Source: Pedobacter jeongneungensis (lineage in GTDB: Bacteria; Bacteroidota; Bacteroidia; Sphingobacteriales; Sphingobacteriaceae). From it: a stretch of DNA of 64,000 nucleotides. The number at the start of each line of letters is the position of its first letter. Position 1 is the first letter of the stretch. The position numbers were made by a program, and so were the translations under genes. Shown here piece by piece: positions 7,661 through 30,764 of this stretch. The stretch spans positions 496,001 through 560,000 of the forward strand of contig NZ_AYMG01000001.1 of the NCBI RefSeq assembly GCF_000633455.1, given 5' to 3'. The notes beneath the pieces were generated by a model. The model did not search any database. It saw only the letters and a list, made by a program, of their open reading frames with translations, and was not told where the DNA came from.

Positions 7661-10600
7661 ATGGAAAAAAGTTACCTAAAATGGTCAACAGGATTTTTTG
7701 CGATTTTGTTGATCCCATTTATGCTGCTTCTGTTTACAGAAACGGCTCAGGCACAGAATAAGCGCTATACCATTAATGGTAAAGTAAGTGATGCCTCAAA
7801 TAACGAAGCCATCCCTGGCGTTGTGGTTAAAATCCTCAATACAAGTTTAGCAACCAGTACCAATGCTAACGGAGGCTATGCTTTTGCGGTAGATTTAGCT
7901 CCCGGCAAATACCAGGTTCAGTTTTCTTACGTAGGTTACAAAAGTAAAGTTCAGGCAGTAGATCTTGGTACAAGCGATCAGGTTCAGTTAAGTGCTGCCC
8001 TAAGTGCCGATGCTGTTGGTTTGGATGAAGTAATTGTAACCGGAACATCACAGGGAACCACCCGAAAAGAATTGGGAAGCTATGTAAGTACTGTTAAAGG
8101 CGATGACCTGAACAAAGCACCTAGCGGAAACGTGTTGTCATCACTGCAGGGAAAAACGGCAGGTGCACAAATCAGCCAAAACTCAGGTGATCCTGCCGGT
8201 GGATTATCGGTTCGTTTAAGAGGAATCAGCTCTGTAAACTCTTCATCAGAGCCGCTTTACATTATTGATGGGGTAATTGTTAACAATTCAACAACCAGGG
8301 TTACCAATACTTCAAGCAACTATGACGGTGGAAACTTTGTTGGCAGTATCGGACAAAACAGAATGGTTGATATTAACCCGGCAGATATTGAGCGGATCGA
8401 AGTACTTAACGGCGCTGCCGCTGCTGCCATTTACGGATCGAGGGCAAACTCAGGCGTGATTCAGATTTTTACCAAAAAAGGAGTAAGCGGTGCGGCTCAG
8501 GTTAATTTTAGTACAAGTTTAACATTAAGCCATTTACGTAAACAGATTGATGTAAACCAATCGCCGGTAAGGTTTGGTACGCCAACAAACGCGCCCACAC
8601 AAGATGTGATCCAAACCGTTGGCGATCCGCCATTTCTGCAGCCCAATACCATCCCTGTAACCCGTTACAATTATCAGGATTATATTTTTCAATCGGCCAC
8701 AGGTACCGATAATACAATTTCTGTTTCTGGTGGTAACGAAAACACCAAATATTACACTTCTGCTGCTTATTTTAGTAACCAGGGGATTATTAAAAATACC
8801 GATTTTACACGCTATAATTTCAGGGCAAACATCGATCAGAAAATTACTGAATGGGCAAAACTAAGTGCTGGTTTAAATTATATCCGCAGCTCAGCCAACG
8901 AAAAGCCAGACGGAAACTCGTTCTTTTCGCCCATGAATTCGGTCACCATTATTGGTAATTTTCATGATATTTTTGCAAGAGATGCGAATGGCAATTTACT
9001 TGCTGTTGGCGAGCGCGGCAGGGTAAACCCTGTTTCGGTAATCGAAGATATTAAGCAACGCCAGGAAACCAACCGCATTATTGCCAATGCGAACTTAAAA
9101 TTATATCCGGTAAAAAACCTGACATTAGATTTTACTTTGGGGGTTGATAACTCCGGACAAAGCGGCTCAACATATATTCCTCCGTTTGCATACAACGTAA
9201 ACCCCGATTTTTATGGTGGAGGTGCTGCCTTAGATGGTACCCTTAATGGTTATGCAAGTGCGGCAACCAATAATGCCTTTCAATTTAATAATGAATTTAA
9301 TGCAACCTATCAGGCCAAATTATCCGATCTGATTTCATCAACCACTCAGGTTGGTTATTCGTTTCAATACGAAAAAACCAAATATCAGCTGGTAAACGGC
9401 AGAGGTTTGGCTCCATTAATCGAAACGGTAAATGCTGCGGCAACACAATTGCCAAGTGTTGATGGAAGAACCGAACTTTCGGTTAGTGGCGGTTATGTTC
9501 AACAGAACTTTAAGTACAAAGATCATTTATTTGTTACCGGTGCCCTAAGGGTAGATCAGTCTTCTGTTTTTGGATCTGCTAACCGTACACAGGAATATTT
9601 AAAAGGAAGTTTAAGTTATGTGCTTTCGTCGGCCGATTACTGGAAAAGTTTTGGTGTTTCCGGCTGGTGGGATACCTTTAAAATCAGGGCAGCTTATGGC
9701 GAATCGGGTAATTTAACCGGTATTGGGGCTTATGACAGGATAAACGCTTATTCTACACAATCTTTCCTGGGCAGGGCCTCCCTGTTTTCGAGCGCAACTC
9801 TGGCAAACGAAAATGTTAAGCCAGAGCGTCAGCGCGAACTCGAACTGGGAACAGATTTATCATTTTTTAAAAACAGGTTTGGAATACAGTTTAACTGGTA
9901 CAATAAAAAAGTAAGCGATTTATTAATTGCCAGCGTACAGGCTCCTTCAACCGGATTTTCCAGCCTGTTAGATAATATCGGTTCGTTAAGAAATAAAGGA
10001 ATTGAGCTGGTATTGAACGGAACACCTGTTAATGGAAAGGATTTTAAATGGAATACTTCAGTTGTGTTTAACAGAAATAGAAATACAGCACTTAATGTTG
10101 GTGGTTTAAGGTTATTCAGCACAAATCCGGGTGCTCCGGTAGCCATTATAAATGATGAAGCAATTGGTGTTTTCTATGGAACTTTTTTTGCCCGTAACCC
10201 CGATGGCAGTTTGTTAACCAATGCTGCGGGCATCCCTCAGATTGAAAAAGGAATTCAAAATACGGCCACCACATTTACCCCTCAGCGGGATGCGAATGGC
10301 CTGCCAACAGGAACCACGCTGCGTAAAGTAATTGGTAATCCAAATCCGGATTATAACATGTCATTTGTGAACGATTTTACCTATAAAAGATTGAATTTAC
10401 ATGTGCAGTTTGATGCGGTACAGGGAGGCGATGTTTGGAATGCTGACTGGAGAACCCGCCAGGGTGTTGGAAACGGTAAAGTAGCCGAGCAAGAACAGAT
10501 GGGGCAATTGCCAAGGGGATATGTTGCCGGTGTTTATGCCATTGAAGAATGGAGGATTGATGATGGATCTTTTGTTAAGTTAAGAGAAATTTCATTAAGC

Positions 10601-10798
10601 TATAACGTTGGTAAGCTGAAATTTTTAAGAGACCTTACCGTAACGGTAAGCGGAAGAAACTTGATCTCATGGGATAATTACAAAGGTTATGATCCGGAGT
10701 TAAATTCGGGCGGACAATCGACTATATTGAGAAATATAGATTTTGGTTCGGTGCCCATTCCCCGCACTTTCAGTTTGGGTTTACAAGTTAAATTATAA
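7661..10798 (+). CDS. SusC/RagA family TonB-dependent outer-membrane transporter 1
   Basis: 1045 residues. A signal peptide ends at about residue 31 (TETAQAQ), followed by a carboxypeptidase-regulatory-like domain (about 36-118, KRYTINGKVSDASNNEAIPGV), the TonB box/plug region (LDEVIVTGTSQGTTRKELG; NPADIERIEVLNGAAAAAIYGSRANSGVIQIFTKKG), and a C-terminal 22-strand barrel ending VPIPRTFSLGLQVKL with the terminal hydrophobic residue typical of outer-membrane barrels. It would import a polymer fragment or peptide together with the SusD partner 17 bp downstream. The substrate cannot be read from sequence, and no polysaccharide-degrading enzyme is linked. It does not share the TTGCG boxes found before the other two susC genes, so is probably controlled separately. 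Confidence 0.95.
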   Translation: MEKSYLKWSTGFFAILLIPFMLLLFTETAQAQNKRYTINGKVSDASNNEAIPGVVVKILNTSLATSTNANGGYAFAVDLAPGKYQVQFSYVGYKSKVQAVDLGTSDQVQLSAALSADAVGLDEVIVTGTSQGTTRKELGSYVSTVKGDDLNKAPSGNVLSSLQGKTAGAQISQNSGDPAGGLSVRLRGISSVNSSSEPLYIIDGVIVNNSTTRVTNTSSNYDGGNFVGSIGQNRMVDINPADIERIEVLNGAAAAAIYGSRANSGVIQIFTKKGVSGAAQVNFSTSLTLSHLRKQIDVNQSPVRFGTPTNAPTQDVIQTVGDPPFLQPNTIPVTRYNYQDYIFQSATGTDNTISVSGGNENTKYYTSAAYFSNQGIIKNTDFTRYNFRANIDQKITEWAKLSAGLNYIRSSANEKPDGNSFFSPMNSVTIIGNFHDIFARDANGNLLAVGERGRVNPVSVIEDIKQRQETNRIIANANLKLYPVKNLTLDFTLGVDNSGQSGSTYIPPFAYNVNPDFYGGGAALDGTLNGYASAATNNAFQFNNEFNATYQAKLSDLISSTTQVGYSFQYEKTKYQLVNGRGLAPLIETVNAAATQLPSVDGRTELSVSGGYVQQNFKYKDHLFVTGALRVDQSSVFGSANRTQEYLKGSLSYVLSSADYWKSFGVSGWWDTFKIRAAYGESGNLTGIGAYDRINAYSTQSFLGRASLFSSATLANENVKPERQRELELGTDLSFFKNRFGIQFNWYNKKVSDLLIASVQAPSTGFSSLLDNIGSLRNKGIELVLNGTPVNGKDFKWNTSVVFNRNRNTALNVGGLRLFSTNPGAPVAIINDEAIGVFYGTFFARNPDGSLLTNAAGIPQIEKGIQNTATTFTPQRDANGLPTGTTLRKVIGNPNPDYNMSFVNDFTYKRLNLHVQFDAVQGGDVWNADWRTRQGVGNGKVAEQEQMGQLPRGYVAGVYAIEEWRIDDGSFVKLREISLSYNVGKLKFLRDLTVTVSGRNLISWDNYKGYDPELNSGGQSTILRNIDFGSVPIPRTFSLGLQVKL

Positions 10799-10815
10799 TC
10801 GTTAAAGGAATTTTT

Positions 10816-12111
10816 ATGAAAATTTTAAAAAATAATATTTCGACAAATATAACCTGTTTAACACTTTCGTTAGCGTTGTGCTTAGCCTCGTGTACAAAAG
10901 AATATCAGGATCCATCAAGGGCAAAAACCGATGTAGCTTTAGGTTCTCAACAAGGATTAACTGCGGTAGCCATTGGTTTGCAACGTGTTTATACCTTAAG
11001 CAGAACTGGTGTAGTGTTTAATTCTGTTGCCGCAAATGGCTTTGTAACCAATGAGCTTAGGTTGCTTAACACCGGGAATATTCCCGAATTGCAGTTGAGT
11101 ACCGGGGGAAGCGCTGTAGATGGAACAAATACCATTTTGTTTAACCTTTGGGCAAGCGCCAATAAAATTGTGTACGATGCTGATTTAGTGATTGCTAACG
11201 CCGGCAATTTGGGAGATAAGGGATATGCCTCAGGGTTAATTGCCTATTCGAGTATATTTAAAGCCCTGGCCATTGGCAATATGGCACAATACTGGGAAAA
11301 AATCCCTGATGGCACGGGCAAAAATGTAGCATACATCACCCGTTCTGCCGGATTCGTAAAAGCAATTGCCGTTTTGGATAATGCTTTAACTGTTATTGCC
11401 GCAAACCCAATTTCTGCCGGTTTTTTAAGCAATGCACCCACTGACGTAAATATTGTAAATACGATACATGCATTAAAGGCCAGGTATGCATTATTTGCGG
11501 GGAATTACACACTTGCATTAACTGAAGCAACAGCTGTTGATTTAACAAAAGCATCATTTTTTAAGTTTGATGCTACATCTCCAAATGCATTGTTCAGCGT
11601 TGTTTCTTCCAATAATGTTTTTCAGCCTTTAAATGCAAACCTGGGCCTTACCGGAGCAAATGTTCCTGACGCAACCGATAAAAGAATTCCTTTTTATACC
11701 TTAATGGCCGGATCGCCTGCAACCTTGCGTATGAGTGGTTTCGCGACCGCAACAGCAAGCCCCTTCCCGATTTATTTGCCAGGCGAGATTATTTTAATAA
11801 AAGCCGAAGCACTTGCCAGGCAGCCGGATTTAATTAATTCATTAATTGAACTGAATAAGGTAGTAACCAAAACCTCTGATCTTTTTGGGGTGGCCGCTGC
11901 ATTACCTCCGTTGGTTGGGCCTTACACGCAACAACAATTGCTCGATCTGATTTACAAACACCGTTCGATTGAATTGTATGCATCAGGCTTAAAAATCGAA
12001 GATATGAGAAGATTTAATCAGCCATTAACAGATCGTAAACGGAATTTTTTCCCTTATCCTTTCCAGGAGCGGGATAACAATACCAATACCCCTGCTGATC
12101 CTGCTTTTTAA
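10816..12111 (+). CDS. SusD/RagB-like surface nutrient-binding lipoprotein 1
   Basis: 431 residues, somewhat shorter than most SusD proteins. The lipoprotein signal ends LCLASC (Cys26), followed by TKEYQDPSRA. The C-terminal part has the family features EIILIKAEALARQPDLINSLIELNKV and LLDLIYKHRSIELYASGLKIEDMRRF, then NFFPYPFQERDNN. Family members cap the SusC barrel on the cell surface and bind the substrate. It follows its SusC by 17 bp and forms a two-gene operon ending in the terminator at 12122. Confidence 0.9.
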   Translation: MKILKNNISTNITCLTLSLALCLASCTKEYQDPSRAKTDVALGSQQGLTAVAIGLQRVYTLSRTGVVFNSVAANGFVTNELRLLNTGNIPELQLSTGGSAVDGTNTILFNLWASANKIVYDADLVIANAGNLGDKGYASGLIAYSSIFKALAIGNMAQYWEKIPDGTGKNVAYITRSAGFVKAIAVLDNALTVIAANPISAGFLSNAPTDVNIVNTIHALKARYALFAGNYTLALTEATAVDLTKASFFKFDATSPNALFSVVSSNNVFQPLNANLGLTGANVPDATDKRIPFYTLMAGSPATLRMSGFATATASPFPIYLPGEIILIKAEALARQPDLINSLIELNKVVTKTSDLFGVAAALPPLVGPYTQQQLLDLIYKHRSIELYASGLKIEDMRRFNQPLTDRKRNFFPYPFQERDNNTNTPADPAF

Positions 12112-12121: not shown

Positions 12122-12152
12122 AAAAAGGTTCCGATATTTCGGGACCTTTTTT
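12122..12152. terminator. Bidirectional terminator between SusD1 and the DeoR gene
   Basis: Stem AAAAAGGTTCCGA with TTCGGGACCTTTTTTT (one G-T pair), flanked by an A-run on one side and a T-run on the other. It sits between convergent genes and can serve both. Confidence 0.85.
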
Positions 12153-12898
12153 TATAAAATATTCAGCTCTTTTTCGCGGTAGCGCGAAAGCGATTCGTGG
12201 CCTAAATCCAGCTCTGTAATCAAATGGCTAATACTTTCTATCGGGCAAACCCTTAACCTCAGCGCAATATCCAGTTTCTCGGAAATACAAAGTACGGCTG
12301 TTCTTTTTGCACAAGCCAGCATGGCTTTTTTAAGCTGGTTAATTTCCCAGTAAGTATCTGTTAAACCTTCATCAGGGTGGATGGCACTGGTGCCCATTAA
12401 ACATAAATCGGCCTTTATTTCTGCTAACTGCGTAATAACCTGTCCGCCGTAAGTAACCTGCGAATTTTTAGAAAACAGGCCGCCGATCAAAATCACTTCA
12501 ATATTATTGTATTTAGCCAGCTCTACCGCAACCAGCGGACTAATGGTGAAAAACGTAGCCGTTAAGCCCTGTGGAAGTAGTTTTACAAACTCTAAAATCG
12601 TTGTTCCGCCACCCGTTAAAACCACCATGCCATCCTTTATTAGCTGAACTGCTTTTTTACCGATTGCTATTTTGCTGTCTCTGGCGTATACCGTACTATC
12701 ATCAAAAGAACTGTGGTACGATTTGGATAAAGCACCTCCATGTACCTTATAAAGCAGGTTTTCATCAACAAGTTCCTGTAAATCTCTTCTGATGGTATCT
12801 TCTGAAACATTGAGTAATTGGACCAGATCAGAGGTTAATACGCGGTTGTGCAAATTAATCTGACGCATGATGAAGTCGTGACGTTCTTTTTTCAGCAT
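12152..12898 (-). CDS. DeoR/GlpR family transcriptional regulator
   Basis: 248 residues. The N-terminus has the DeoR winged helix-turn-helix (RVLTSDLVQLLNVSEDTIRRDL, residues 19-40, then LLYKVHGGAL). The C-terminal DeoRC sensor domain includes KAVQLIKDGMVVLTGGGTTILEF and ADLCLMGTSAIHPDEGLTD. Family members usually respond to phosphorylated sugars. It is transcribed divergently from the second SusC/SusD operon. The 242-bp shared upstream region contains TTGCG boxes repeated at 10-bp steps plus a 12-bp palindrome, and the same box layout occurs before the third susC. This regulator is the natural candidate to bind them. Confidence 0.93.
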   Translation of the reverse strand: MLKKERHDFIMRQINLHNRVLTSDLVQLLNVSEDTIRRDLQELVDENLLYKVHGGALSKSYHSSFDDSTVYARDSKIAIGKKAVQLIKDGMVVLTGGGTTILEFVKLLPQGLTATFFTISPLVAVELAKYNNIEVILIGGLFSKNSQVTYGGQVITQLAEIKADLCLMGTSAIHPDEGLTDTYWEINQLKKAMLACAKRTAVLCISEKLDIALRLRVCPIESISHLITELDLGHESLSRYREKELNIL

Positions 12899-12953: not shown

Positions 12954-12980
12954 TTGCGTGTTTTTGCGTTTTGTTGCAAT
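12954..12980. promoter_or_regulatory. Triple 10-bp-phased TTGC boxes (distal), susC2
   Basis: TTGCG at 12954, TTGCG at 12964 and TTGCA at 12974: three boxes at exact 10-bp spacing, that is, on one face of the helix. The layout is repeated at 18759/18769/18779 before susC3. Tandem direct half-sites are known for DeoR-family operators. Confidence 0.6.
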
Positions 12981-12989
12981 AAAATATTG

Positions 12990-13001
12990 TGCGTTAACGC
13001 A
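12990..13001. promoter_or_regulatory. 12-bp palindrome in the DeoR-susC2 region
   Basis: TGCGTTAACGCA is a perfect palindrome containing TGCGT half-sites like those of the adjacent phased boxes. It could be an additional site for the same regulator. It has no equivalent before susC3. Confidence 0.45.
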
Positions 13002-13067
13002 ATAAATCTTTTTCATTTGTTCTTATTGTCAAAAACATTCAGCATATTTACTTAACTAACATCAAAA

Positions 13068-13084
13068 CTGCGTGAATTTGCGTG
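13068..13084. promoter_or_regulatory. Double 10-bp-phased TGCG boxes (proximal), susC2
   Basis: CTGCG at 13068 and TTGCG at 13078, 114 bp after the distal array and 73 bp before the susC2 start. The equivalent pair before susC3 is ATGCG 18872 and CTGCG 18882, 113 bp after its distal array. Confidence 0.55.
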
Positions 13085-13140
13085 TTTTGACTAGCCGGAA
13101 AACAAACAACAACCTGTAACTAAATTCTTACTGACTAATT

Positions 13141-16100
13141 ATGATGAAAAAACTACTTTTTAGTTTTATCGGTATCATGCTGTCTGCCCAAATTTTTGCG
13201 CAGCAGATAATTATTACCGGTAAAGTCAGCTCTGCTGACGGGCCAATTCCCGGTGTCTCCATCCGGGTAAAAGGAGGCAGCACCGTTTCGCAAACCAGCA
13301 ACACCGGAAATTATTCCATTAAAGCATCAAAAACCGATGTATTGGTGTTCTCCTATGTTGGGTATAAAACTGTAGAGCGTACTGTAGGCGCCAACACAGC
13401 CATTAATGTTACCCTTTTAGCCGATGCCGGCAACCTGAATGAAGTAGTTGTTACGGCTTATGGGATTGACCGCGATGTTAAATCGCTGGGTTATTCTACC
13501 CCAAAAGTTTCTGGAGCGGAAGTAGCTGAAACCCAGCGGAACGATTTTTTTGGTGGATTACAGGGGCGTGTACCGGGTTTATCGATCAATAGTACCAATG
13601 GAAACCCCGGTGCTTCTGCGCAAATTGTACTGCGTGGTTTCGTATCAATTAGTGGCGATAACAATGCGCTTATCGTAGTAGATGGGGTACCAATTAATAA
13701 CAGTACATTGAACCAAACCCGCGAACTCGTTTCGGGCGCAGCAAACAGAGATCAGGATTATTCGAACAGAGGGATGGATATCAATCCCAACGACATCGAA
13801 AGTTATGTGATTATGAAAGGTCCCGAAGCTACTGCATTATACGGGAGTGCGGGTGCCAGCGGCGCGATTTTAATCACTACAAAAAAAGGCAAAGCGGGGC
13901 GTGGAAGCATCAATTACAGCAACTCGTTTAGGATAGAGCAACTGAATAAATTTCCGGAAATACAGACCAAGTACAACACTGGGGTTTCTAACGGCGTTTA
14001 CGATGGTGGTTCATCTAACTTTTTTGGCCCTGCATTTTTGCCTAATACACCGCTTTACGATAACATCCACAATTTTTTCGAGACGGGATTTACGCAAAAA
14101 CACAATTTATCATTTGAAGGTGGAACCGATAAATTCTCTTATCGCTGGTCTAATGAATATACCGATTCGAAGGGAACAATCCCCACAACAAGTTACACCA
14201 GAATTTCCTCAAGAGTAACAGCTGTTGGTACCATTTCGCCGGTTTTAAAACTAACCACTACCTTCAATTACATCAATTCCAATAATGATAAGGCTAACAA
14301 AGGCGCTAATGGTTCGCTATTGCAGTTGATGCGTTTTAGTTCGGCTTATAACGTTCAGGATTATCAGGATGCTAACGGAAACCGGCTTTTGCACCTGGCC
14401 AGCATTTATTCGGAGTTTGATAATCCCCTTTGGGATGTGATTAAAAACGTAAATAATGATAAAGTTAACCGTTTGATTGCCAATACCAATGTAGAGCTGA
14501 CGCCTTTAAAATGGCTGCGTATCAATGGGATCATTGGTGCCGATATTGCCAATACTAAAGGCTTATCGGTATATCATGCGCAATCTTACCGGGGTTCGGG
14601 TTCGTCTTCAGCTCCAACAGGCGGTACGGTAATGACTTATGATCAACTGGCCAAAGTATTTAACGGATCGTTAACCGCTACAGCCAAACATAAATTCGGC
14701 GATTTTAACAATACTTATGTAATTGGTGCTACTTTTAACGATTACAATTCTACCACCGATTCTCAGCGTGGTACGAACATGTACGATCCCAATTTTTACA
14801 GTATTAACAATACATTGCCAACTACACAGCGTACATTAACCTATGTAAACCGCTACCGTACCGTAGGTGCTTTTGCACAAGCCATTATGGGTTATAAAAC
14901 ATTACTGTATCTAACCTTGTCGGGCAGGGTTGATGGTGCTTCGCGCTTGATGCCGAACAATCCATATTTTGCCTATCCATCTGCAAGTTTAGCCTTTAAT
15001 TTTACTGATCTGGCCAGTATTAAAACAGCTCTGCCCTGGTTGGATAATGGTAAATTAAGAGCTTCTTACGCCTTAACGGGTAAGGAGCCATGGAGGGAAT
15101 ATTCTACTGGTACGAACTATGAGGCCAAAAGGTTTACAGGAGGAGGTTATGCCTATTCTTACTATGGCGGTAACCCGAACTTAAAGCCAGAGGTGTCAGA
15201 AAATTTCGAGATCGGTACTGAAATGCAGTTCCTGAAAAACCGCATCGGATTGGATTTTAACTATTACAATCTGCTGAGCAAAGACCAAATCATTAATCCC
15301 CGTTTAAGTTATGGTACGGGTTTCGTTTTAGAGATGATGAACGGTGGGACCGTACGTAACCGCGGTATCGAGGTGCAGCTAACCGGTAATCCGATCAAGG
15401 GAAAAGACTTTAACTGGAATACTACTTTAAATTTTACCCGCAACCGTGGTGTGGTATTATCATTGGCAAATGAACTTCCTGAGCTTTACGAGTCTGATAC
15501 CTGGGTGGTTGGCGACATTAGAAGTGCAGTGCATCCGGGTTACAGCACAGGTGCCATCAGCGGTACCAGGTTTGCCCGTAATGATAGGGGCGATATCCTG
15601 ATCAATCCATCATCAGGTTTACCATCGGTTACTGATACCCAGTTTTATCCTATCGGCGACAGGAATCCAAAATTTACTTTGGGTTTCGTAAACAGGTTTA
15701 GCTATAAAGGCTTTAATCTCTCTTTCTTATGGGATTTCAGGTATGGTGGCGATGTGGTTAACGGCACCGAATATGCTTCTTACATTAAAGGGATCAGTAT
15801 TAAGACATTGGATAGGGAAGTGCCCAGGATTATTACAGGCGTATTGAACGATGGTTTGCAGAATACCGCAAACCCAACGGTTAATACCATTTCTGTAACA
15901 CCATATTATGCTTCTAACTATTATTCTACAAATGTTGCACCAGAGATGTTTGTGGAAAGAAACATAAAAACACTCCGTTTAAGGGATGTTACTTTGGCTT
16001 ACGATTTTCCGCCGTCATTAGTTAAGCGTATCGGGTTTATCCAAAGCTTTGGCGCCTTTTTTACGGTGACCGATTCTATTTTGATTACCAATTATTCTGG

Positions 16101-16221
16101 TGGAGATCCGGAGAGTAATTCAAATTCGCCGGGTGTGGGCGGTATTGGTGGTTACGGTATTGATTATGGTAACGTGGGTAAGCCGATCGGTTTCAACGTA
16201 GGATTTAGGGTTAAATTATAG
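13141..16221 (+). CDS. SusC/RagA family TonB-dependent outer-membrane transporter 2
   Basis: 1026 residues. Signal peptide about 1-21 (MMKKLLFSFIGIML...FAQQ); an ATG three bases later is an equal alternative start. The regulatory-like domain follows directly (IIITGKVSSADGPIPGVSIRVKGG), then the plug with LNEVVVTAYGIDRDVKSLGYST and NPNDIESYVIMKGPEATALYGSAGASGAILITTKKG, then the barrel ending GKPIGFNVGFRVKL. First gene of a three-gene operon with a SusD-like and a DUF4397 lipoprotein. Its upstream region carries the TTGCG boxes shared with susC3 and is divergent from the DeoR gene. The substrate is unknown; DeoR control would suggest a sugar or polyol. Confidence 0.95.
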   Translation: MMKKLLFSFIGIMLSAQIFAQQIIITGKVSSADGPIPGVSIRVKGGSTVSQTSNTGNYSIKASKTDVLVFSYVGYKTVERTVGANTAINVTLLADAGNLNEVVVTAYGIDRDVKSLGYSTPKVSGAEVAETQRNDFFGGLQGRVPGLSINSTNGNPGASAQIVLRGFVSISGDNNALIVVDGVPINNSTLNQTRELVSGAANRDQDYSNRGMDINPNDIESYVIMKGPEATALYGSAGASGAILITTKKGKAGRGSINYSNSFRIEQLNKFPEIQTKYNTGVSNGVYDGGSSNFFGPAFLPNTPLYDNIHNFFETGFTQKHNLSFEGGTDKFSYRWSNEYTDSKGTIPTTSYTRISSRVTAVGTISPVLKLTTTFNYINSNNDKANKGANGSLLQLMRFSSAYNVQDYQDANGNRLLHLASIYSEFDNPLWDVIKNVNNDKVNRLIANTNVELTPLKWLRINGIIGADIANTKGLSVYHAQSYRGSGSSSAPTGGTVMTYDQLAKVFNGSLTATAKHKFGDFNNTYVIGATFNDYNSTTDSQRGTNMYDPNFYSINNTLPTTQRTLTYVNRYRTVGAFAQAIMGYKTLLYLTLSGRVDGASRLMPNNPYFAYPSASLAFNFTDLASIKTALPWLDNGKLRASYALTGKEPWREYSTGTNYEAKRFTGGGYAYSYYGGNPNLKPEVSENFEIGTEMQFLKNRIGLDFNYYNLLSKDQIINPRLSYGTGFVLEMMNGGTVRNRGIEVQLTGNPIKGKDFNWNTTLNFTRNRGVVLSLANELPELYESDTWVVGDIRSAVHPGYSTGAISGTRFARNDRGDILINPSSGLPSVTDTQFYPIGDRNPKFTLGFVNRFSYKGFNLSFLWDFRYGGDVVNGTEYASYIKGISIKTLDREVPRIITGVLNDGLQNTANPTVNTISVTPYYASNYYSTNVAPEMFVERNIKTLRLRDVTLAYDFPPSLVKRIGFIQSFGAFFTVTDSILITNYSGGDPESNSNSPGVGGIGGYGIDYGNVGKPIGFNVGFRVKL

Positions 16222-16229
16222 CGAATAAC

Positions 16230-17840
16230 ATGAAAAGATTATATAAATTATATATTGCTGCGGCAATATTGTTAATGGCCGGAGGATGTAAAAAATACCT
16301 CGATATCAATACCAATCCTGCAGTACCACAAACCAGTAAAGCAGAGTTGTTGCTTCCGCCGATTCTATTCCAGATGACAAACGGAACCTCGCAGGATTAC
16401 CGTTTTATTTGGAAAATTACACAAAATCTTATTGGGGCATCAACTGATGATGGATCTATTGCTTTTGAAAAACACACTTACATCCGTTCAAGCGATAACG
16501 GAGGGGTAATCTGGAGAATGACCTATGTCGATCTGGGCTTGAATCTCGAGAATTTAATTAATGATGCTGTCGCTAATCAAAAATATGAATATGCGGCAAT
16601 CGGTTATGCCATTAAAGCCTGGGCCTATCAGCAAACCACGGATCTGCATGGCCCGATTATTTTAGATGAAGCTTTTACGCCCGGGATGTTAAAATTTCCT
16701 TACCATGATCAACCGGAAGTTTATGCAAAAGTGCGTTTCTATTGTGAGCAGTCGCTAAAATATTCTGTGATGAAAAGTCCGTTAAACTATGCTACGCAAT
16801 TGGCCAGTGTTACCGGAGATGGGATTTATAAAGGAGACATGGCGAAATGGCGAAAATTTGTATATGCCATTTATGCATTGCAGTATAGCCATTTGATTAA
16901 CAAGCCTGAGTTTAAAGCCATGTATGCCGATAGCGTGGTTAAGTACACTAACTTATCTTTCGCCAACGAGGCCGAATCAGCAACGGTTTATTTTTCGGCT
17001 GCCAGTCAGGATGATACCAATCCTTTTGGTCCAACATTGGGCTATATTAACACCGCCGGAACAACTTCAGCTTATTATGGAAGGATTTCCACCACCATCT
17101 TAAATTATCTTGCCGGTGGAGTGAAGGGAACGCCTACGGTGAACCCAACAAGCTCGCTTGATCCGCGTTTAAGCAGAATGTTGCCTGCAAGTACAGCTGC
17201 CACTACTTTGGGCAGGTACATTGCCGGTGTTCCAACCCAGGGTAGCAGTACATCTGCGCTGCCAATTGTTTTTGGATCAATCCCAGCAGGTGCCACGATT
17301 TATAACGGAAAATATATTTTTGCCGATGCTGCAAGGTATCCCATCATGACTTATTCGCAATTGCGCTTTGCTAAAGCAGAGGCGTTATTTTTACAGGGGA
17401 AAACCGCAGATGCCTATACCGCATATAAAGAGGGGATTTCGGGGCACATGGTTTTTTGCAATACCTATGGCCGTTCTTCCAAAACGCCTGATCCCCTAAT
17501 TACCGATGCAGAGATTAATACCTATTTAACTTCTACTGAAGTTGCGCAAAGTGCTGCAACATTAACGCTAGCCGATATTATGGGACAAAAATACATTGCA
17601 CAATGGGGATGGGCAGGTTTGGAGCAGTGGAATGACCTCCGGAAATATCATTACGATGCCAATGTTTTCAGGCAGTTTTATCAGATTCCGGCAGCAGATC
17701 TTTTGTTGGGTGGCAAATATGCCTACCGTTTCAGGCCACGTTATAATTCCGAGTATGTATGGAATACCGAAGAGTTGCGTAAGTGGGGTGGATTGGATAT
17801 TGATTATATGACTAAAGAAACCTGGTTTAGTCAGCCGTAA
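16230..17840 (+). CDS. SusD-like_2 family surface lipoprotein 2
   Basis: 536 residues with a lipoprotein signal ending MAGGC (Cys20) and then KKYLDINTNPAVPQTSKAELLLPP, the characteristic start of the SusD-like_2 (SusD/RagB nutrient-binding) family. The C-terminal IMGQKYIAQWGWAGLEQWNDLRKYHYD and RFRPRYNSEYVWNTEELRKWGGL are also typical. It lies 8 bp after susC2 and so is translated with it. It differs in family from the other two SusD proteins in the window, which suggests a different type of ligand, possibly not a long polysaccharide. Confidence 0.92.
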   Translation: MKRLYKLYIAAAILLMAGGCKKYLDINTNPAVPQTSKAELLLPPILFQMTNGTSQDYRFIWKITQNLIGASTDDGSIAFEKHTYIRSSDNGGVIWRMTYVDLGLNLENLINDAVANQKYEYAAIGYAIKAWAYQQTTDLHGPIILDEAFTPGMLKFPYHDQPEVYAKVRFYCEQSLKYSVMKSPLNYATQLASVTGDGIYKGDMAKWRKFVYAIYALQYSHLINKPEFKAMYADSVVKYTNLSFANEAESATVYFSAASQDDTNPFGPTLGYINTAGTTSAYYGRISTTILNYLAGGVKGTPTVNPTSSLDPRLSRMLPASTAATTLGRYIAGVPTQGSSTSALPIVFGSIPAGATIYNGKYIFADAARYPIMTYSQLRFAKAEALFLQGKTADAYTAYKEGISGHMVFCNTYGRSSKTPDPLITDAEINTYLTSTEVAQSAATLTLADIMGQKYIAQWGWAGLEQWNDLRKYHYDANVFRQFYQIPAADLLLGGKYAYRFRPRYNSEYVWNTEELRKWGGLDIDYMTKETWFSQP

Positions 17841-17864
17841 AGTTTTATTTTAAAGCATATTAAC

Positions 17865-18662
17865 ATGAAGATATTTTCTAATTTATTCGCCTGCCTGTTT
17901 ATTGCTATGGCTTTAACAGGTTGTACTAAAAATGTACTCGATTATGGCGAAACCGAAAAGTTGACCAGCGATCAGGCACTGTTAAAGGTAAATTACGCCT
18001 CCTATTATTATAATAACAGGGCCATAGCCATTAAAATTAACGATAAAAGGGTAAGTAGCGTAATTACTGCCCGTACACCATTTCCTGGTGGTGGGTACAA
18101 CACAGGGGGGAGTTCTACTGCCGATTTTCTTGCGGTAAACCCAGGCAATTTGAAACTCTCCATTATCCTTCCAAAAAAGAAAGACGACGGAACAGATTCA
18201 CTGGTACTGTACAGCACCACGTTTCAGATCCAGGCAGGCAAAAACTATGTTGCCCACATCACAGATACAGCTGCTTTTACTAAAAATGTATTAACAGAAG
18301 AAAGTTTCGTTAGGCCTGATACGGCATATTGTAAATACAGGTTTATCAACCTGATGCCTAATGTTCCATCGGTAGATCTGTATTATGGAACCAGTGCCAC
18401 TGATAACACAAAAGACTCGCTGATTGCTGGGAATGTAAATTATCTGAACATTACCAATGAGATTAAACTAAGGTCTGCGCAATCAAAAACCTGGAAAATC
18501 AGGCCGGCAGGGGCAGCCGTAACCACAGCAACGGTTCTGGCGAATTATACCAGTGCGAGTACCTTTTTAAACCAAAGGGTTTATACCATTTTTGCGAGTG
18601 GCTACAATGGCATTAGTACTGCACCGCGGAGGCCTTATGTATCCTTCTTTTTGATAAGATAA
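17865..18662 (+). CDS. DUF4397 domain lipoprotein
   Basis: 265 residues with a lipobox ALTGC (Cys20). The body matches the DUF4397 pattern of two similar beta-rich halves: LLKVNYASYYYNNRAIAIKIN...GGSSTADFLAVNPGNLKLSI and YCKYRFINLMPNVPSVDLYYG...NYLNITNEIKLRSAQSKTWKIRPAG. Function is not known; these lipoproteins often follow SusC/SusD pairs and may be additional surface binding proteins. It starts 24 bp after the susD2 stop, is the last gene of the operon, and is followed by a strong terminator. Confidence 0.85.
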   Translation: MKIFSNLFACLFIAMALTGCTKNVLDYGETEKLTSDQALLKVNYASYYYNNRAIAIKINDKRVSSVITARTPFPGGGYNTGGSSTADFLAVNPGNLKLSIILPKKKDDGTDSLVLYSTTFQIQAGKNYVAHITDTAAFTKNVLTEESFVRPDTAYCKYRFINLMPNVPSVDLYYGTSATDNTKDSLIAGNVNYLNITNEIKLRSAQSKTWKIRPAGAAVTTATVLANYTSASTFLNQRVYTIFASGYNGISTAPRRPYVSFFLIR

Positions 18663-18683
18663 TTTTCTCTCTTTCATTTAGTT

Positions 18684-18719
18684 TAAGCCACCGCTAAATT
18701 TTAGCGGTGGCTTTTTTTG
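18684..18719 (+). terminator. Rho-independent terminator of the susC2 operon
   Basis: Stem AAGCCACCGCTAAA / TTTAGCGGTGGCTT followed by TTTTTT; the two arms are perfectly complementary. Confidence 0.93.
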
Positions 18720-18758
18720 TTAAAAATAATTTTATTAAAGATATCAGAACCTATTTAA

Positions 18759-18785
18759 TTGCGCCTTTATGCGGTTTTTTGCAAT
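18759..18785. promoter_or_regulatory. Triple 10-bp-phased TGC boxes (distal), susC3
   Basis: TTGCG 18759, ATGCG 18769 and TTGCA 18779, the same spacing and order (two TGCG boxes then TTGCAATAA) as at 12954 before susC2. Surrounding sequence is otherwise not conserved, which argues for a functional site instead of a simple duplication. Confidence 0.6.
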
Positions 18786-18871
18786 AATATCAAACTAATT
18801 ACAATATAAAGCCTCTGAATATTTGTAAATAAGTGGAAAACAATTATGATATTTACTTAAAATTCAGGAAT

Positions 18872-18888
18872 ATGCGGTATTCTGCGTG
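18872..18888. promoter_or_regulatory. Double 10-bp-phased TGCG boxes (proximal), susC3
   Basis: ATGCG 18872 and CTGCG 18882 (then TGTTTATGA), matching CTGCG/TTGCG and TGTTTTGA before susC2. The boxes lie 60 bp before the susC3 start. Confidence 0.55.
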
Positions 18889-18931
18889 TTTATGAATCCG
18901 AACTAACAACAAACATCATTAACTAGTGTTT

Positions 18932-21900
18932 ATGAAAAAAAAATTACTATCAATCTTTTTTGGTGTGTTTTTGCTGGTGGCTCACGCCATTGCGCAACAA
19001 AGCACCATTACGGGTAAGGTTACATCAGAAGATGGACCAATACCAGGGGTTTCTGTTAAAATAAAAACAGGAACCACAGTAGTACAAACTGATGGCAATG
19101 GAGTTTATTCCATAAAAGCCAGCAAAGGCGAAACCCTCGTATTTTCTTTTATTGGTTATGTAAGTCAGGAGAAAACCGTGAGTGACAGCAATACCATTAA
19201 TGTGGCATTGGCTTCCGAGTCGAAAGGACTACAAGAGGTTGTAGTTGTGGCTTTTGGTACGCAGAAAAAAGCAAACTTAACAGGGGCGGTAACAACGGTT
19301 GATGTTACCAAAACTTTTGGCAGTAAACCCTTAAACGATCCTACAAAAGCCTTACAGGGTATCGTTCCTGGTTTAACCATTACTTATGGAAACGGTGGGT
19401 TAACCTCTTCACCGAACATCAACATCAGGGGAGTTGGATCAATAAACGGAACCAGCAAACCATTGATTATTGTAGACAATGTGGAAACACCTGATCTTTC
19501 GATTATTAACCCGGCCGACATTGAAAGTGTTTCTGTATTAAAAGATGCGGCATCAACTTCAATTTATGGAGCAAGGGCCGCATTTGGCGTGGTCTTAATC
19601 AAGACCAAATCGGGTAAGAAAAACCAGCCGACAAAAATAGTTTACACCAACAACTTCTCGTGGAACAAACCAACGATACTGGCCGATTTTGCCAACCCTG
19701 TTGACGAATTGCAGGCCCTTTATGATGCATCGGTTAGGGCAGGTACAACTTCGCCCGAAACTTTTGGTATGCAGTTAACCAAGCTCAGGGATGGTATTGC
19801 AAACTGGCAAAATAAATATGCTGCTACGAATACTGGAAATGATATGATATTGGGTCAGGATTTTGATTACGTAGATGGGCGTGTTTATTTCTACAAGGTG
19901 TGGCATCCTAAAAAGGAAATGCTGAAAGATTATACCGCTCAATCAAATCATAATTTAAGCTTACAGGGTGGAAGCGATAAAATCGGCTATTATTTATCTG
20001 GCGGTTATGCAAATGAGGGTGGTATCTTCAAATTAAATCCTGATGAGCTTACTAAATACAACATCAGCGGTTCGATAAATGTGGCGGCAACCAAATGGTT
20101 GGATGTTGATGCTAAATTCTTATACAGGAACTTTAAATATGATTATCCATATCAATACCAAAATTACTGGTATTACTTTTGGCGTTGGGGTTCTTATTTT
20201 CCTTATGGTAAATATAACGGAAACTATTTCAGGCATACTCCTGCCTATCTGGCAAATGCGCAAACATCTAGTGTTACCGAAAATTATAGCCGGGTAGATT
20301 TGGGTGCAACCATTAAAATTACCAAAGATTTAAGTATTCGTGCTGATTACACCTTGGGTAGAACAAATGCATTAAGGCATGAAGTTGGTGGACCAATTAA
20401 TGCAATTGATTTTTGGACAGCAGGTACACCACCGCTTCTGGCAAATATTGCAACAGCAGCGCAGGATGTGGTGAGTTACGGTGAAACCAGAAATATGGTG
20501 AATACGCTAAATGCTTATGCCACTTATCAAAAAACTCTTGCTACCGATCATAATATTAAAATTACCGCTGGTGTAAACTCCGAAAATTATGACAACGTCC
20601 AGTTTACAGCGGCAAGAAACACCATTTTAGACCCTACAAGACCAGAACTTTCTTTAGCAGTAGGTACGCAACTGGCCAGTGGTATACATGGCAGCACAAT
20701 TAATGGTGTTCCATACCCTGTTGGAGCATATGCAGGTTATTTTGGCCGTTTTAATTACGATTACAAAGGGAAATACCTGTTGGAGTTAAATGGAAGATAC
20801 GACGGTTCTTCTGCATTTTCCAAATTGGATAGATGGGGCTTTTTCCCTTCTGCTTCTGCGGGTTACCGTTTAACCGAAGAAAAATTTATGAGCTTTATCA
20901 AGCCATATGTTGATGAGGTTAAATTTAGGGCCTCTTATGGTTCGGTTGGTAACCAAAATGTTGGTGGCCAGTATTATATCCCGTCAATGGCTGCATCAGG
21001 TGTTAATTGGATCACGCCTACTGGAACAACATTAACTACGGGTATTGCAGCACCCATTCCGGTTGCCCAGTCGTTAACCTGGGAGAAAATTCAAACACTT
21101 GATTTTGGTACCGACATCCGTTTACTGAAAAACCTTGTTGGTTTATCGGTTGATTATTATCAACGCGATACCAAAGGCATGTTGCAGCAGTCTTCTGTTC
21201 CGGCTACTTTTGGATCTGCAGGCCCCAGAATTAATGCAGGAAATTTTAGAAACCGTGGTTACGAAATCAGTTTAGATTTAAATTATCCGGTTAGCCAGGA
21301 TCTTAACCTATATGCTACCCTAACCCTGGCAGATAATAAAACAGTATTTACAAAATGGAACAACCCATCTAATTTAATTTATCAGAATAATCCAAACTAT
21401 CAGAACGCTGGTTTTTATGTAGGGCAGCAATATGGTGAAATCTGGGGATTCGAAACAGAAGGTTTTTTTCAATCTGCAGACGAAGTGAAAAACTCTGCTA
21501 GTCAGGTGGCTTTGCAAAATGGAAACTTTGTTTACGGGGTGGGTGATGTTAAGTACAAAGATTTAAATGGCGATGGCGTAATTAACCAAGGTAAGGGAAC
21601 AGCTGATGATCATGGTGATTTAAAAGTGATTGGCAATAGTCAGCCCAGGTATCAGTACAGTGCCCGTTTAGGTGGAACTTTTAAAGGCTTTGATATCGAT
21701 GTATATATTCAGGGCGTAGGAAAGCGCGATTATTGGGGTCTGGGTACCATGATTATCCCTGCTTATGGCAATGCCGATATTATGTATGCTAACCAACTAG
21801 ACTTCTGGACACCTTCAAATCCAAACGCATTTTATCCACGTCCATATATTGGCAATAGTGCAACCAAAATTGCTCAATTTCCTGCAAGTGGAAACAACTT

Positions 21901-22162
21901 CTACCCCCAATCTAAATATTTATTAAACCTGGCTTATGCCCGTTTAAAGAATGTAACCATAGGCTATACCTTACCAAATAACTGGTTGAAAAAATATGGT
22001 GTAGAGAAATTTAGAATTTACGTGAGTGGACAAAATCTGGCAACAATTTCAAACGTGGGTGCACCAATAGATCCTGAAATGACAGATGGAGAAGCTGGCT
22101 ACACAGGCCGTACCTTTCCGTTTAACAGACAATATTCTTTCGGTGTTAACTTAACATTATAA
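18932..22162 (+). CDS. SusC/RagA family TonB-dependent outer-membrane transporter 3
   Basis: 1076 residues from the ATG at 18932. A GTG two codons earlier (18926) is less likely, since the ATG begins MKKKLLSIFFGVFLLVAHA, a standard signal peptide. The regulatory-like domain begins QQSTITGKVTSEDGPIPGVSVKI and is very like that of susC2. The plug has LQEVVVVAFGTQKKANLTGAVTTVD and NPADIESVSVLKDAASTSIYGARAAFGVVLIKTKSG. The barrel ends GRTFPFNRQYSFGVNLTL. It pairs with the SusD gene 8 bp downstream. The shared upstream boxes suggest control by the DeoR protein encoded 6 kb away. Confidence 0.95.
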   Translation: MKKKLLSIFFGVFLLVAHAIAQQSTITGKVTSEDGPIPGVSVKIKTGTTVVQTDGNGVYSIKASKGETLVFSFIGYVSQEKTVSDSNTINVALASESKGLQEVVVVAFGTQKKANLTGAVTTVDVTKTFGSKPLNDPTKALQGIVPGLTITYGNGGLTSSPNINIRGVGSINGTSKPLIIVDNVETPDLSIINPADIESVSVLKDAASTSIYGARAAFGVVLIKTKSGKKNQPTKIVYTNNFSWNKPTILADFANPVDELQALYDASVRAGTTSPETFGMQLTKLRDGIANWQNKYAATNTGNDMILGQDFDYVDGRVYFYKVWHPKKEMLKDYTAQSNHNLSLQGGSDKIGYYLSGGYANEGGIFKLNPDELTKYNISGSINVAATKWLDVDAKFLYRNFKYDYPYQYQNYWYYFWRWGSYFPYGKYNGNYFRHTPAYLANAQTSSVTENYSRVDLGATIKITKDLSIRADYTLGRTNALRHEVGGPINAIDFWTAGTPPLLANIATAAQDVVSYGETRNMVNTLNAYATYQKTLATDHNIKITAGVNSENYDNVQFTAARNTILDPTRPELSLAVGTQLASGIHGSTINGVPYPVGAYAGYFGRFNYDYKGKYLLELNGRYDGSSAFSKLDRWGFFPSASAGYRLTEEKFMSFIKPYVDEVKFRASYGSVGNQNVGGQYYIPSMAASGVNWITPTGTTLTTGIAAPIPVAQSLTWEKIQTLDFGTDIRLLKNLVGLSVDYYQRDTKGMLQQSSVPATFGSAGPRINAGNFRNRGYEISLDLNYPVSQDLNLYATLTLADNKTVFTKWNNPSNLIYQNNPNYQNAGFYVGQQYGEIWGFETEGFFQSADEVKNSASQVALQNGNFVYGVGDVKYKDLNGDGVINQGKGTADDHGDLKVIGNSQPRYQYSARLGGTFKGFDIDVYIQGVGKRDYWGLGTMIIPAYGNADIMYANQLDFWTPSNPNAFYPRPYIGNSATKIAQFPASGNNFYPQSKYLLNLAYARLKNVTIGYTLPNNWLKKYGVEKFRIYVSGQNLATISNVGAPIDPEMTDGEAGYTGRTFPFNRQYSFGVNLTL

Positions 22163-22170: not shown

Positions 22171-23823
22171 ATGAAATTAACTAAATCAATACTATATCTA
22201 TCATTTATTGCAATTCTGGGCATTAGCTGTTCTAAAGACTTAAATATAGATACACCAGATCAGTTTTCTGATGATAACTTCTGGACAAGTGAAAATAATG
22301 TGCGTACCTATAACTGGGGTTTTTATGCCCTGTTTACCGGTTTTGGAACAGGTACAACCGCCGATTTTTATTTTTCTACCTTAACGGATGATCAGGATGC
22401 GGCAACCTTTCAAAATTTTGCATTAACAGCACCAACTACTTCAGCCGATTGGGACTGGACCTACGTGCGCAAAGCCAATATTATGCTAGAACGTACCAGC
22501 AAGGTGCCGATGAGCGATGAAGCGAAAAAACACTGGAACGGGATTGCTAAATTTTTTAGGGCGATGGATTACTTCAGTAAAGTTAAAACTTTTGGTGGTG
22601 TGCCTTACATCGGTAAATCGTTGGATATTTCTCAAACCGATGTAATTTACAAACCCCGCGATAGCCGTCAATTGGTAATGGACAGTGTTTTAAGTGATAT
22701 TAATTATGCTGTAGAAAATATCCGTGTTAACGACGGCGATAACGTTGTAAACCGCGATGTTGCCTTGGCTTTGAAAGCCAGGATCTGTCTTTTTGAAGGT
22801 TCTTACAGGGTTTATCATACCGAATTAGCATTGCCAGATGCAGATAAATTTTTAACACAGGGTAAAGATGCCTGCGAAAAATTAATGACTGGTAAATATC
22901 TCCTTAATGCGGATTACAGAAGTATTTACAGTTCAATGGATCTGGCCGGAAACAAAGAAGTATTACTTTATAAAAAATATCTGGCCGGTGTATTAACGCA
23001 CTCTGTAATCGGTTATACCAACAGTACCACTCAAATGAGCGGTTTAACAAAATCAGCTGTTGATGCTTATCCTGCAATTGATGGTTTACCAATTGGGCAA
23101 TCGCCACTTTATCAGGGCGACAATACCATTACTACGCTTAGGGCAAACCGTGATAACCGCTTATTAGGCACAATCGATAACTTTTTGTGTTACAACGGTA
23201 CTTTGGTAAATGGTTACAGCTCGAGCACCGGTTACCGTCCTTCTAAATTTTTAAACCCGGCTTCCAACCAGCTGGCACCTTATAACGAAACGGATGCGCC
23301 GATTTTTTACTATCCTGAGGTTTTACTTAATTATGGAGAAATTACAGCAATCCTTGATCAATTAGGCAAACTTACTTTTACCCAGGCTGATATGGATAAA
23401 TCAATTAACCTTTTAAGAACCCGGGCAGGGATTACCAAGCTAACTGTTACCGGTGGAGGAAATGTAGCTGCGGGAGGAACTGCTGTTGCCGATCCGAAAA
23501 GAGATGCTGATGTTTCTGCTTTAATGTGGGAAATAAGACGCGAGCGCAGAGTAGAATTAATGATGAATGGATTTAGATACCAGGATTTGATGCGCTGGAA
23601 AAAAGGTGAATATCTGGATAGAGCAAAAAATGTAGAAGCTTTCTTAGGTGCCAAAGTACCAGATAACGGTAAGGTGTTAAGAAATGCACAAGGCTATATT
23701 GTGCCTTATGCTACAACTTTAACCAGAACATTTGTTGATCCAAAAAATTATTTGTCGGCAATTCCTACCGGTCAAATTAGTTTGTATCCTGCAAATACAC
23801 TGCAGCAAAATCCAGGCTGGTAA
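22171..23823 (+). CDS. SusD/RagB family surface lipoprotein 3
   Basis: 550 residues. Lipobox ILGISC (Cys20), then SKDLNIDTPDQFSDDNFWTSENNVRTYNWGFYALF, a classical RagB/SusD beginning. Internal TPR-like helices include RKANIMLERTSKVP and WNGIAKFFRAMDYFSKVKTFGGVPY; the C-terminal IRRERRVELMMNGFRYQDLMRWKKGEYL is the family's usual end motif. It binds the ligand of SusC3 on the cell surface. The operon ends with the terminator at 23844, which also serves the convergent phosphoesterase gene. Confidence 0.95.
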   Translation: MKLTKSILYLSFIAILGISCSKDLNIDTPDQFSDDNFWTSENNVRTYNWGFYALFTGFGTGTTADFYFSTLTDDQDAATFQNFALTAPTTSADWDWTYVRKANIMLERTSKVPMSDEAKKHWNGIAKFFRAMDYFSKVKTFGGVPYIGKSLDISQTDVIYKPRDSRQLVMDSVLSDINYAVENIRVNDGDNVVNRDVALALKARICLFEGSYRVYHTELALPDADKFLTQGKDACEKLMTGKYLLNADYRSIYSSMDLAGNKEVLLYKKYLAGVLTHSVIGYTNSTTQMSGLTKSAVDAYPAIDGLPIGQSPLYQGDNTITTLRANRDNRLLGTIDNFLCYNGTLVNGYSSSTGYRPSKFLNPASNQLAPYNETDAPIFYYPEVLLNYGEITAILDQLGKLTFTQADMDKSINLLRTRAGITKLTVTGGGNVAAGGTAVADPKRDADVSALMWEIRRERRVELMMNGFRYQDLMRWKKGEYLDRAKNVEAFLGAKVPDNGKVLRNAQGYIVPYATTLTRTFVDPKNYLSAIPTGQISLYPANTLQQNPGW

Positions 23824-29175: not shown

Positions 29176-29203
29176 AAACCTAACCAGATATACCACCAAC
29201 CTT

Positions 29204-30529: not shown

Positions 30530-30560
30530 AAAGATCTTTGTCATCCTGAGCGCTATTCCC

Positions 30561-30657: not shown

Positions 30658-30764
30658 CTGTTTTTATTGAGCTTTGTCGATAGTAACGGGTTGTATTTCC
30701 TCCGATAGTTATCGAAATAACGGTCATTTTATATAATTCTTCCCCCTTTTATGAGAAAAATAAC

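Follow-up and report, generated by a model that had tools for sequence, protein, structure and literature searches.

The 64,000-bp stretch of the Pedobacter jeongneungensis genome analysed here (contig NZ_AYMG01000001.1, positions 496,001 to 560,000; hereafter the window) contains two operons that begin with genes for SusC/RagA TonB-dependent transporters, susC2 and susC3, and a gene for a DeoR-family regulator (deoR) that is divergent from susC2. Both operons are preceded by short TTGCG-like boxes repeated at 10-bp steps, which raises the question of which protein reads these boxes and how it acts on the two promoters. With a probability of roughly 0.7, we consider the boxes to be DeoR operators that bracket each susC promoter and would repress it by means of a DNA loop, to be released by an amino-sugar phosphate.

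Phased boxes around a promoter-like core

The ten boxes named in the original prediction were all recovered with the expected letters. Upstream of susC2, a triple (TTGCG at 12954, TTGCG at 12964, TTGCA at 12974) is followed by a pair (CTGCG at 13068, TTGCG at 13078), and upstream of susC3 a triple (TTGCG at 18759, ATGCG at 18769, TTGCA at 18779) is likewise followed by a pair (ATGCG at 18872, CTGCG at 18882). The predicted triple-to-pair separations of 114 bp for susC2 and 113 bp for susC3 are exact. The control regions and their genes are composed as follows:

12152..12898, minus strand: deoR, encoding a DeoR-family regulator of 248 aa and divergent from susC2, with Pfam matches to HTH_DeoR and DeoRC above cut-off
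12954..12978, plus strand: putative operator cluster A of susC2, with TTGCG/TTGCG/TTGCA in 10-bp steps, located 55 bases upstream of the start codon of deoR and kept genus-wide
13032..13055, plus strand: core of susC2 with a putative promoter role, containing ATATTTAC at 13044-13051, which starts 90 bp after the first box
13068..13087, plus strand: putative operator cluster B of susC2, the pair CTGCG/TTGCG with TGTTT, which starts 24 bp past the core ATATT
13141..16221, plus strand: susC2, SusC/RagA TonB-dependent transporter (TIGR04056, 605.6 bits)
16230..17840, plus strand: susD2, lipoprotein (SusD-like_2, 100 bits)
17865..18662, plus strand: DUF4397 protein gene (domain match), probably the last gene of the susC2 operon as judged from gene spacing
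18685..18713, plus strand: terminator-like hairpin separating the susC2 operon from that of susC3 (13 base pairs, including 7 G-C, followed by a T run)
18759..18783, plus strand: putative operator cluster A of susC3, TTGCG/ATGCG/TTGCA, without an adjoining deoR
18837..18860, plus strand: promoter-like core of susC3, containing ATATTTAC at 18849-18856, which starts 90 bp after the first box
18872..18891, plus strand: putative operator cluster B of susC3, the pair ATGCG/CTGCG with TGTTT
18932..22162, plus strand: susC3 (TIGR04056, 806.6 bits), with an ATG at 18932 where the list of open reading frames gives a GTG at 18926
22171..23823, plus strand: susD3, lipoprotein (SusD_RagB, 100.6 bits)

The promoter-like core is a third element shared by the two control regions and lies at the same distance from the first box in both. 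Comparison of susC2 with susC3 revealed agreement at 20 of 24 positions of the core, 20 of 25 of the triple and 15 of 20 of the pair. The spacer agrees at 20 of 53 positions, with a shuffle mean of 16.5 and an equally high value in 333 of 2000 shuffles. The earlier statement that the intervening sequences are unlike each other thus applies to the spacer but not to the core, and the view that the pattern is not a recent copy stands: recent duplication of the control region together with its gene was rejected, since the spacers are no more alike than shuffles and the SusC2 and SusC3 proteins share 35% identity across 393 columns and 26% across 225. The core between the clusters is a fixed reference point, which amends the earlier description.

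Within the window alone, neither the loose triple with up to three mismatches (4 matches compared with a mean of 2.3 in shuffles, 17 of 100 of which reached this number) nor 10-bp TGCR pairs (13 compared with a mean of 8.9, with 17 of 100 shuffles again reaching the observed count) were significantly enriched; six of the 13 pairs fall inside the two susC control regions. Across the 6.7-Mb genome, three TGCR at 10-bp steps occur only twice, at the susC2 and susC3 promoters (reversed control, 1), as does the relaxed pattern of a pair followed by TGTTT (two matches at the same promoters; control, 0), and the strict pattern likewise matches only these two control regions. The motif is accordingly not common at random, and a general feature of susC promoters was rejected on the same counts. 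An RNA element at the boxes was also discarded, as no Rfam match at gathering scores lies there and the window yields only two tRNAs. A sigma-70 scan, with a model unsuited to Bacteroidota, gave no excess over shuffles (36 versus 32.9). Between the triple and the core of susC2, a perfect palindrome with box-like halves, TGCGTTAACGCA, is located at 12990-13001; it was not seen at this place in the relatives compared.

Conservation, spacing classes and apparent exchange of susCD cassettes

When one genome collection was searched with DeoR as the query, 51 loci were obtained, comprising 47 on Pedobacter or (one) Sphingobacteriaceae contigs, with deoR orthologues of 75-98% identity, and four in Chitinophagaceae. 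A triple and a pair are present upstream of deoR in 46 of the 51 loci; the misses are the four Chitinophagaceae loci and that of P. frigidisoli (L068), where no susC-like gene was found beside deoR and the pair is gone, with TTGCG/GTGCG boxes remaining. Strict triples were searched in 59 genomes of the genus and class and gave 34 matches, 32 of them in the genus (reversed control, 1). Thirty of these 32 lie within 7 kb of a deoR orthologue, the exceptions being in genomes G022 and G027, and the two matches outside the genus belong to genomes (G048, G050) in which the deoR search found nothing. The corresponding search for strict pairs gave 27 matches, some of which are boxes one and two of a triple; 25 are in the genus and 24 of these near deoR (control, 5). 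A deoR orthologue (E <= 1e-78) is encoded in 30 of 36 genus genomes, of which 21 contain a strict triple, in 20 cases beside deoR, whereas none of the six genomes without the orthologue contains one (p = 0.003, relatedness ignored). The comparison of orthologous loci called for at the outset therefore shows a box pattern that follows deoR through the genus, with a looser form in related genera.

The geometry was determined in the 57 of 61 upstream regions with clear boxes, after omission of L068, the second deoR of L142, L151 and L155 for weak boxes; L154 and L156 are from the same genomes as L072 and L057. The distance from the start of the triple to the core ATATT is 87-91 bp (37 regions at 90, 56 at 89-91; standard deviation (sd) 0.7), and the distance from the core ATATT to the start of the pair is 23 or 24 bp in 49 regions, 13 or 14 bp in six, and 22 and 26 bp once each. 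The outer distances vary: 39-56 bp from the deoR start to the triple in 56 regions (sd 4.7; L078, with a value of 82, is omitted as its anchor is not a start codon) and 64-113 bp between the pair and the first open start codon of susC (sd 7.1). An alignment of 65 rows provided the consensus sequences aAAAACAtTtAtgATATTtaC for the core and aTGCGt.att.TGCGTGTTT for the pair; four core distances in this alignment look misplaced (two at 101/102 bp, two with a core-to-pair distance of 12), so the core distances were taken from the 57 regions. Among 20 rows for sites without an adjoining deoR, 12 from 10 genomes have the core at 89-90 and the pair at 112-114 bp. The other eight comprise three of a 93-bp kind, L098 at 104 bp without a core, and four stray matches with neither core nor pair.

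A scan of the deoR loci for phased clusters in stretches of at least 66% A+T, with degenerate boxes allowed, yielded 89 distinct cluster pairs. The 68 that begin with three boxes are separated by 93 bp (4), 104 bp (7) or 111-115 bp (57), and none has any other distance in the range of 60-200 bp. These classes lie about one helical turn apart, and such quantised spacing is expected under a loop or face-of-helix constraint. The 21 that begin with two boxes scatter over 63-166 bp, six of them at 102-104 bp, which is the distance from box two to the pair in the standard layout. In the 93-bp kind, the triple-to-core distance is 78 and the core-to-pair distance 15, compared with 90 and 23-24 in the main kind, so that the total is 20-21 bp, or about two turns, shorter. 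This variant with the core at 78 bp was observed in L102, L104 and L106 and in the second sites of L033, L044, L057 and L065; the pairs of the three deoR-less 93-bp rows include a degenerate box and were called in the phased-cluster scan. The 104 kind occurs mainly in one type of susC cassette, with four label changes on the deoR tree, three of them forced by well-supported branches, and this cassette type seems to have moved between species. At L143 (3941-4060), a triple and a pair at 104 bp face away from the adjoining susC, the layout being inverted relative to that gene.

The susC genes adjoining deoR in the 47 loci differ widely in their identity to SusC2 (86-96% in 11, 59-62% in five, 38-49% in 27); of the remainder, two match SusC3 best (38%), one matches SusC1, and in one locus the gene is absent. 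Despite this variation, deoR is 75-98% identical across the same loci, and between close species in the range L033-L079 the SusCD cassettes beside deoR vary while deoR, triple and spacing stay. The sister deoR genes of L041 and L042 (support 100/99) have triples that differ at one base, next to susC products with 47% and 95% identity to SusC2 and spacings of 104 and 111 bp. The point of exchange, judged by eye, seems to lie between the triple and the core. We tentatively propose, as an idea that may well fail, that the DeoR switch stays constant and the slot beside it accepts different SusCD pairs: a two-cluster loop of helically quantised length (93, 104 or about 114 bp) might be retained, with core, operators and phase, as cassettes are swapped.

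Beyond the genus, homologues of deoR (E <= 1e-50) are present in 88 of 151 genomes of the taxonomic family and in 19 of its 25 genera, the own genus included. A subset was used to collect 63 upstream regions, 59 of more distant homologues (approximately 50-58% identity) and four of Chitinophagaceae; the regions are mutually related, L226 and L237 represent second copies of deoR in genus members, and one of the 63 anchors is not an ATG, nor is that of L189. Within 300 bp, 38 TGCR-TGCR distances are 10 bp, one is 9 bp and five are 11 bp, compared with a mean of 0.9 and a maximum of 5 for the 10-bp step in 300 single-base shuffles. A 10-bp pair is present in 21 of the 63 regions, and in 62 regions that were scored for a susC it occurs in 16 of 18 with a susC within 600 bp upstream, compared with three of 44 without susC (15 of 17 and three of 42 in the 59 regions, to which three more were added). 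This co-occurrence indicates that the boxes belong with the deoR-susC arrangement; they track the susC gene rather than deoR alone, which again amends the initial reading. In three Chitinophagaceae loci (L081-L083), deoR is located upstream of and in line with susC and the phased boxes precede deoR, and in the fourth (L080) they occupy the interval from deoR to susC.

Proposed mechanism and competing explanations

In the proposed mechanism, the TGCR boxes would be the operators of the adjoining DeoR-family protein, with three half-sites that start about 90 bp upstream of the core and two that start about 23 bp past it, or about 14 bp past it in the variant types. The protein would probably act as a dimer or larger oligomer in which one winged helix contacts each half-site; it would occupy both clusters and bridge them across approximately 108 bp (centre to centre), keeping polymerase off the core and thereby shutting off susC2-susD2-DUF4397 and susC3-susD3. 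The triple adjoining deoR may also set the level of DeoR itself. A sugar phosphate would release the protein, most likely an amino-sugar phosphate such as N-acetylglucosamine 6-phosphate, glucosamine 6-phosphate or N-acetylmuramic acid 6-phosphate.

The assignment of the divergent gene to the DeoR type was borne out by domain scores of 55.8 bits for HTH_DeoR (cut-off 21) and 113.2 for DeoRC (cut-off 31.8), and the 10-bp box steps agree with the tandem direct half-sites of 10-11 bp reported for part of this family. No NCBIfam equivalog cut-off was reached for the named members GlpR_Halo (145/300), SrlR (106/350), AgaR (102/260), UlaR (68/244) and DeoR (50/244). The AlphaFold model of the protein has a pLDDT of 88.3, and the best PDB match of its C-terminal domain is E. 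coli DeoR (7l6l), followed by eIF2B-type and ribose-5-phosphate isomerase folds, which suggests a domain of the sugar-phosphate sensing type. The recognition-helix segment SEDTIRRD(L) is nearly invariant in aligned orthologues down to 49% identity, and a paralogue of 35% identity adjoining a 5'-nucleotidase gene closely matches SEDTIRRDL; a GlpR-like paralogue adjoining FAD-oxidase and FGGY-kinase genes differs in this segment (SSVTIRKDL). Upstream of the former paralogue, which is divergent from the 5'-nucleotidase gene on contig 17 of the same genome (L139, 3006-3063), two TTGCAATATATTGCAA palindromes lie 42 bp apart. Their TTGCA pairs were dropped as support for direct repeats, since a palindrome leaves direct and inverted orientation undistinguished.

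The following genes of the window bear on the inducer and on other possible regulators:

1239-2255: LacI-type gene
4197..6122, minus strand: glucosamine-6-phosphate deaminase-like/PIG-L fusion gene, nagB-like (NCBIfam NF002557, 1068 bits)
6274..7470, plus strand: anmK, anhydro-N-acetylmuramic acid kinase gene (Pfam, 306.8 bits)
7661..12111, plus strand: susC1-susD1 (domain matches), convergent with deoR

Many deoR loci of the genus, and some in several other genera, have nagB-like and anmK genes nearby, and at two other loci the gene divergent from deoR encodes an amidohydrolase with a NagA-type N-terminal domain (above the Pfam cut-off in L186, below it in L188). Our best guess for the inducer is an amino-sugar phosphate derived from the breakdown of glycoprotein or peptidoglycan. 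No TGCR pair was found upstream of the nagB-like fusion gene, and no box cluster upstream of susC1.

Several observations weigh against repression of susC by a DeoR loop as proposed. The core does not cleanly match the Bacteroidetes -7 box, TAnnTTTG. The upstream regions of nagB, anmK and susC1 are free of boxes, which leaves the deduction of the inducer indirect. Where a distant deoR homologue has no susC next to it, TGCR pairs are mostly missing upstream (41 of 44), so that deoR autoregulation is not general. The concentration of the 104 kind in one cassette type that seems to have moved means that the spacing classes rest on few independent events, and susC cassette exchange as in L041/L042 could carry a spacing along without selection. 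Finally, tandem half-sites are not universal in the DeoR family: the original prediction had attributed them to DeoR proteins at large, which agrees with RhaR, whose predicted motifs consist of two imperfect direct repeats with 10-11-bp periodicity in the part of that study available (PMC3870299), but not with E. coli AgaR, whose operators are described as palindromes in the excerpted text of another (PMC4694137).

The alternative with most in its favour, rather unlikely in our view, is that DeoR binds both clusters without looping, the pair being a simple repressor site just past the susC promoter and the triple serving separately, either to autorepress deoR or as a further block, with a spacing fixed by face-of-helix contact with polymerase or by inheritance. 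This would suit P. frigidisoli, which retains boxes in the absence of pair and susC, as well as the triple-to-core distance, the tightest of all as polymerase contact predicts, and the transmissibility of spacing by cassette exchange. The triple is also present at susC3, however, which has no deoR to autoregulate, and in the 93-bp class both inner distances are shifted, yet the total stays about two turns less. The looping suggested earlier from equal phasing and separation is supported by the spacing classes, which go back to few independent origins, the loop itself being inferred. Pure autoregulation of deoR is disfavoured by the sites of the susC3 type without deoR and by the association of box pairs with susC.

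That DeoR is an activator, the triple recruiting polymerase from 90 bp upstream of the core and the pair being secondary, appears improbable. A fixed upstream distance and a core that resembles the Bacteroidetes promoter poorly would fit, and the family includes a named activator, that of the L-fucose operon (NF007720, 80 bits; cut-off 259, not reached), but the well-kept pair with its TGCGTGTTT consensus lies past the core, in a position from which it should obstruct transcription, and several named NCBIfam relatives are called repressors. Still less probable is a reading of the boxes by some other regulator, with no part for DeoR. The case for DeoR consists entirely of co-occurrence, and the LacI-type gene offers another candidate; against this stand the lack of a strict triple in all six genus genomes without a deoR orthologue, the phased boxes at the deoR-susC locus in four of four Chitinophagaceae loci, and the 10-11-bp tandem half-sites reported, in the sources as far as available, for DeoR-family proteins. 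Chance or leftover homology has practically no weight, in spite of the insignificance of loose motif versions within the window: a chance origin of the boxes was rejected on the two matches per 6.7 Mb, exactly at the susC2 and susC3 promoters, and the spacers are unrelated while the layout is conserved genus-wide.

Known systems, neighbouring genes and implications

Operators at a similar distance around a promoter are found in the gal operon of E. coli, where a GalR loop forms between two operators approximately 113-114 bp apart. GalR is a protein of the LacI family that binds palindromic operators and needs HU, and the likeness to the Pedobacter layout is therefore limited to the distance, with differences in protein family, operator symmetry and HU need. 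Looping is also known for the DeoR-family repressors UlaR, DeoR and AgaR of E. coli. These have other targets than the Pedobacter protein and resemble it at the family level only (AgaR, 102 bits; cut-off 260). Regarding their oligomers, a UlaR tetramer on DNA, a DeoR octamer and AgaR tetramers are mentioned in the accessible part of PMC10991401. The RhaR regulons resemble the Pedobacter system in that DeoR-family regulators control sugar genes through direct-repeat motifs, but they concern rhamnose catabolic and transport operons and, in the portion of the text at hand, include no SusC promoter flanked by three-plus-two clusters at a fixed distance (PMC3870299).

In Bacteroides thetaiotaomicron, polysaccharide loci were reconstructed, according to the sections available, as being under SusR-like, hybrid two-component system (HTCS) and sigma/anti-sigma control, and NrtR, Crp, GntR, LacI, ROK and AraC are listed as regulators of sugar pathways (PMC3878776); the word DeoR is absent from the main text of that paper. 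The SusR and HTCS systems are like the Pedobacter one in serving polysaccharide-utilisation operons with direct-repeat motifs, and the SusR sites, 67 or 77 bp apart, likewise differ by about one turn; they differ in using membrane sensors and, for HTCS, repeats that average 21 bp (PMC3878776, same sections). Domains were scanned in 26 proteins of the window, which has 44 listed open reading frames. SusC1-3 and these 26 proteins gave no Pfam match (E <= 0.001) to an STN domain or to sigma/anti-sigma proteins and thus do not display the extracytoplasmic function (ECF) sigma/anti-sigma type of SusC regulation. No hybrid two-component or SusR protein was found among the 26, and the box step of 10 bp and the cluster distance of 93-115 bp also set the locus apart from the HTCS/SusR type.

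The layout had been thought undescribed. Its two-cluster DeoR geometry at SusC promoters was not found in the open-access PMC literature, which does not establish its absence in print, but DeoR genes in Sus-type loci are on record: one is mentioned within a probable Sus-type locus (PMC12118408, available part), and others appear among the regulators on contigs with SusC/SusD in a figure legend (PMC3818352). As far as these excerpts go, both list the DeoR gene with Sus/TonB transporter genes as annotation only, with no operators or mechanism.

PDB sequence searches with SusC2, SusD2 and SusD3 returned only SusC/SusD relatives, the best for SusC2 being BT2264 (5fq6). Downstream of susCD3, genes for an S41 peptidase, an alpha-L-fucosidase, a GH92 protein and a GH2 protein with an exo-glucosaminidase-like Ig domain are located at 27484-35832, a gene set as in a glycoprotein-glycan locus. 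Elsewhere in the window, two tRNA-Asp genes with equal Rfam scores (42512-42586 and 43638-43712) flank a carbonic anhydrase gene, and a TssN-like protein is encoded at 50303-51196 (Pfam type VI secretion TssN, 295.7 bits).

SusC/SusD pairs are main nutrient gates of Bacteroidota. If the proposed repression is correct, a further mode of control would be added for SusC/SusD loci, namely a cytoplasmic DeoR switch whose operators follow a defined geometry, and the targets of this switch would be predictable from sequence in dozens of Pedobacter genomes. Moreover, the natural spacing series of 93, 104 and 114 bp would provide direct test material for repression by looping. Should the SusCD slot indeed be exchangeable, newly acquired transporters would fall under the same amino-sugar signal at once.

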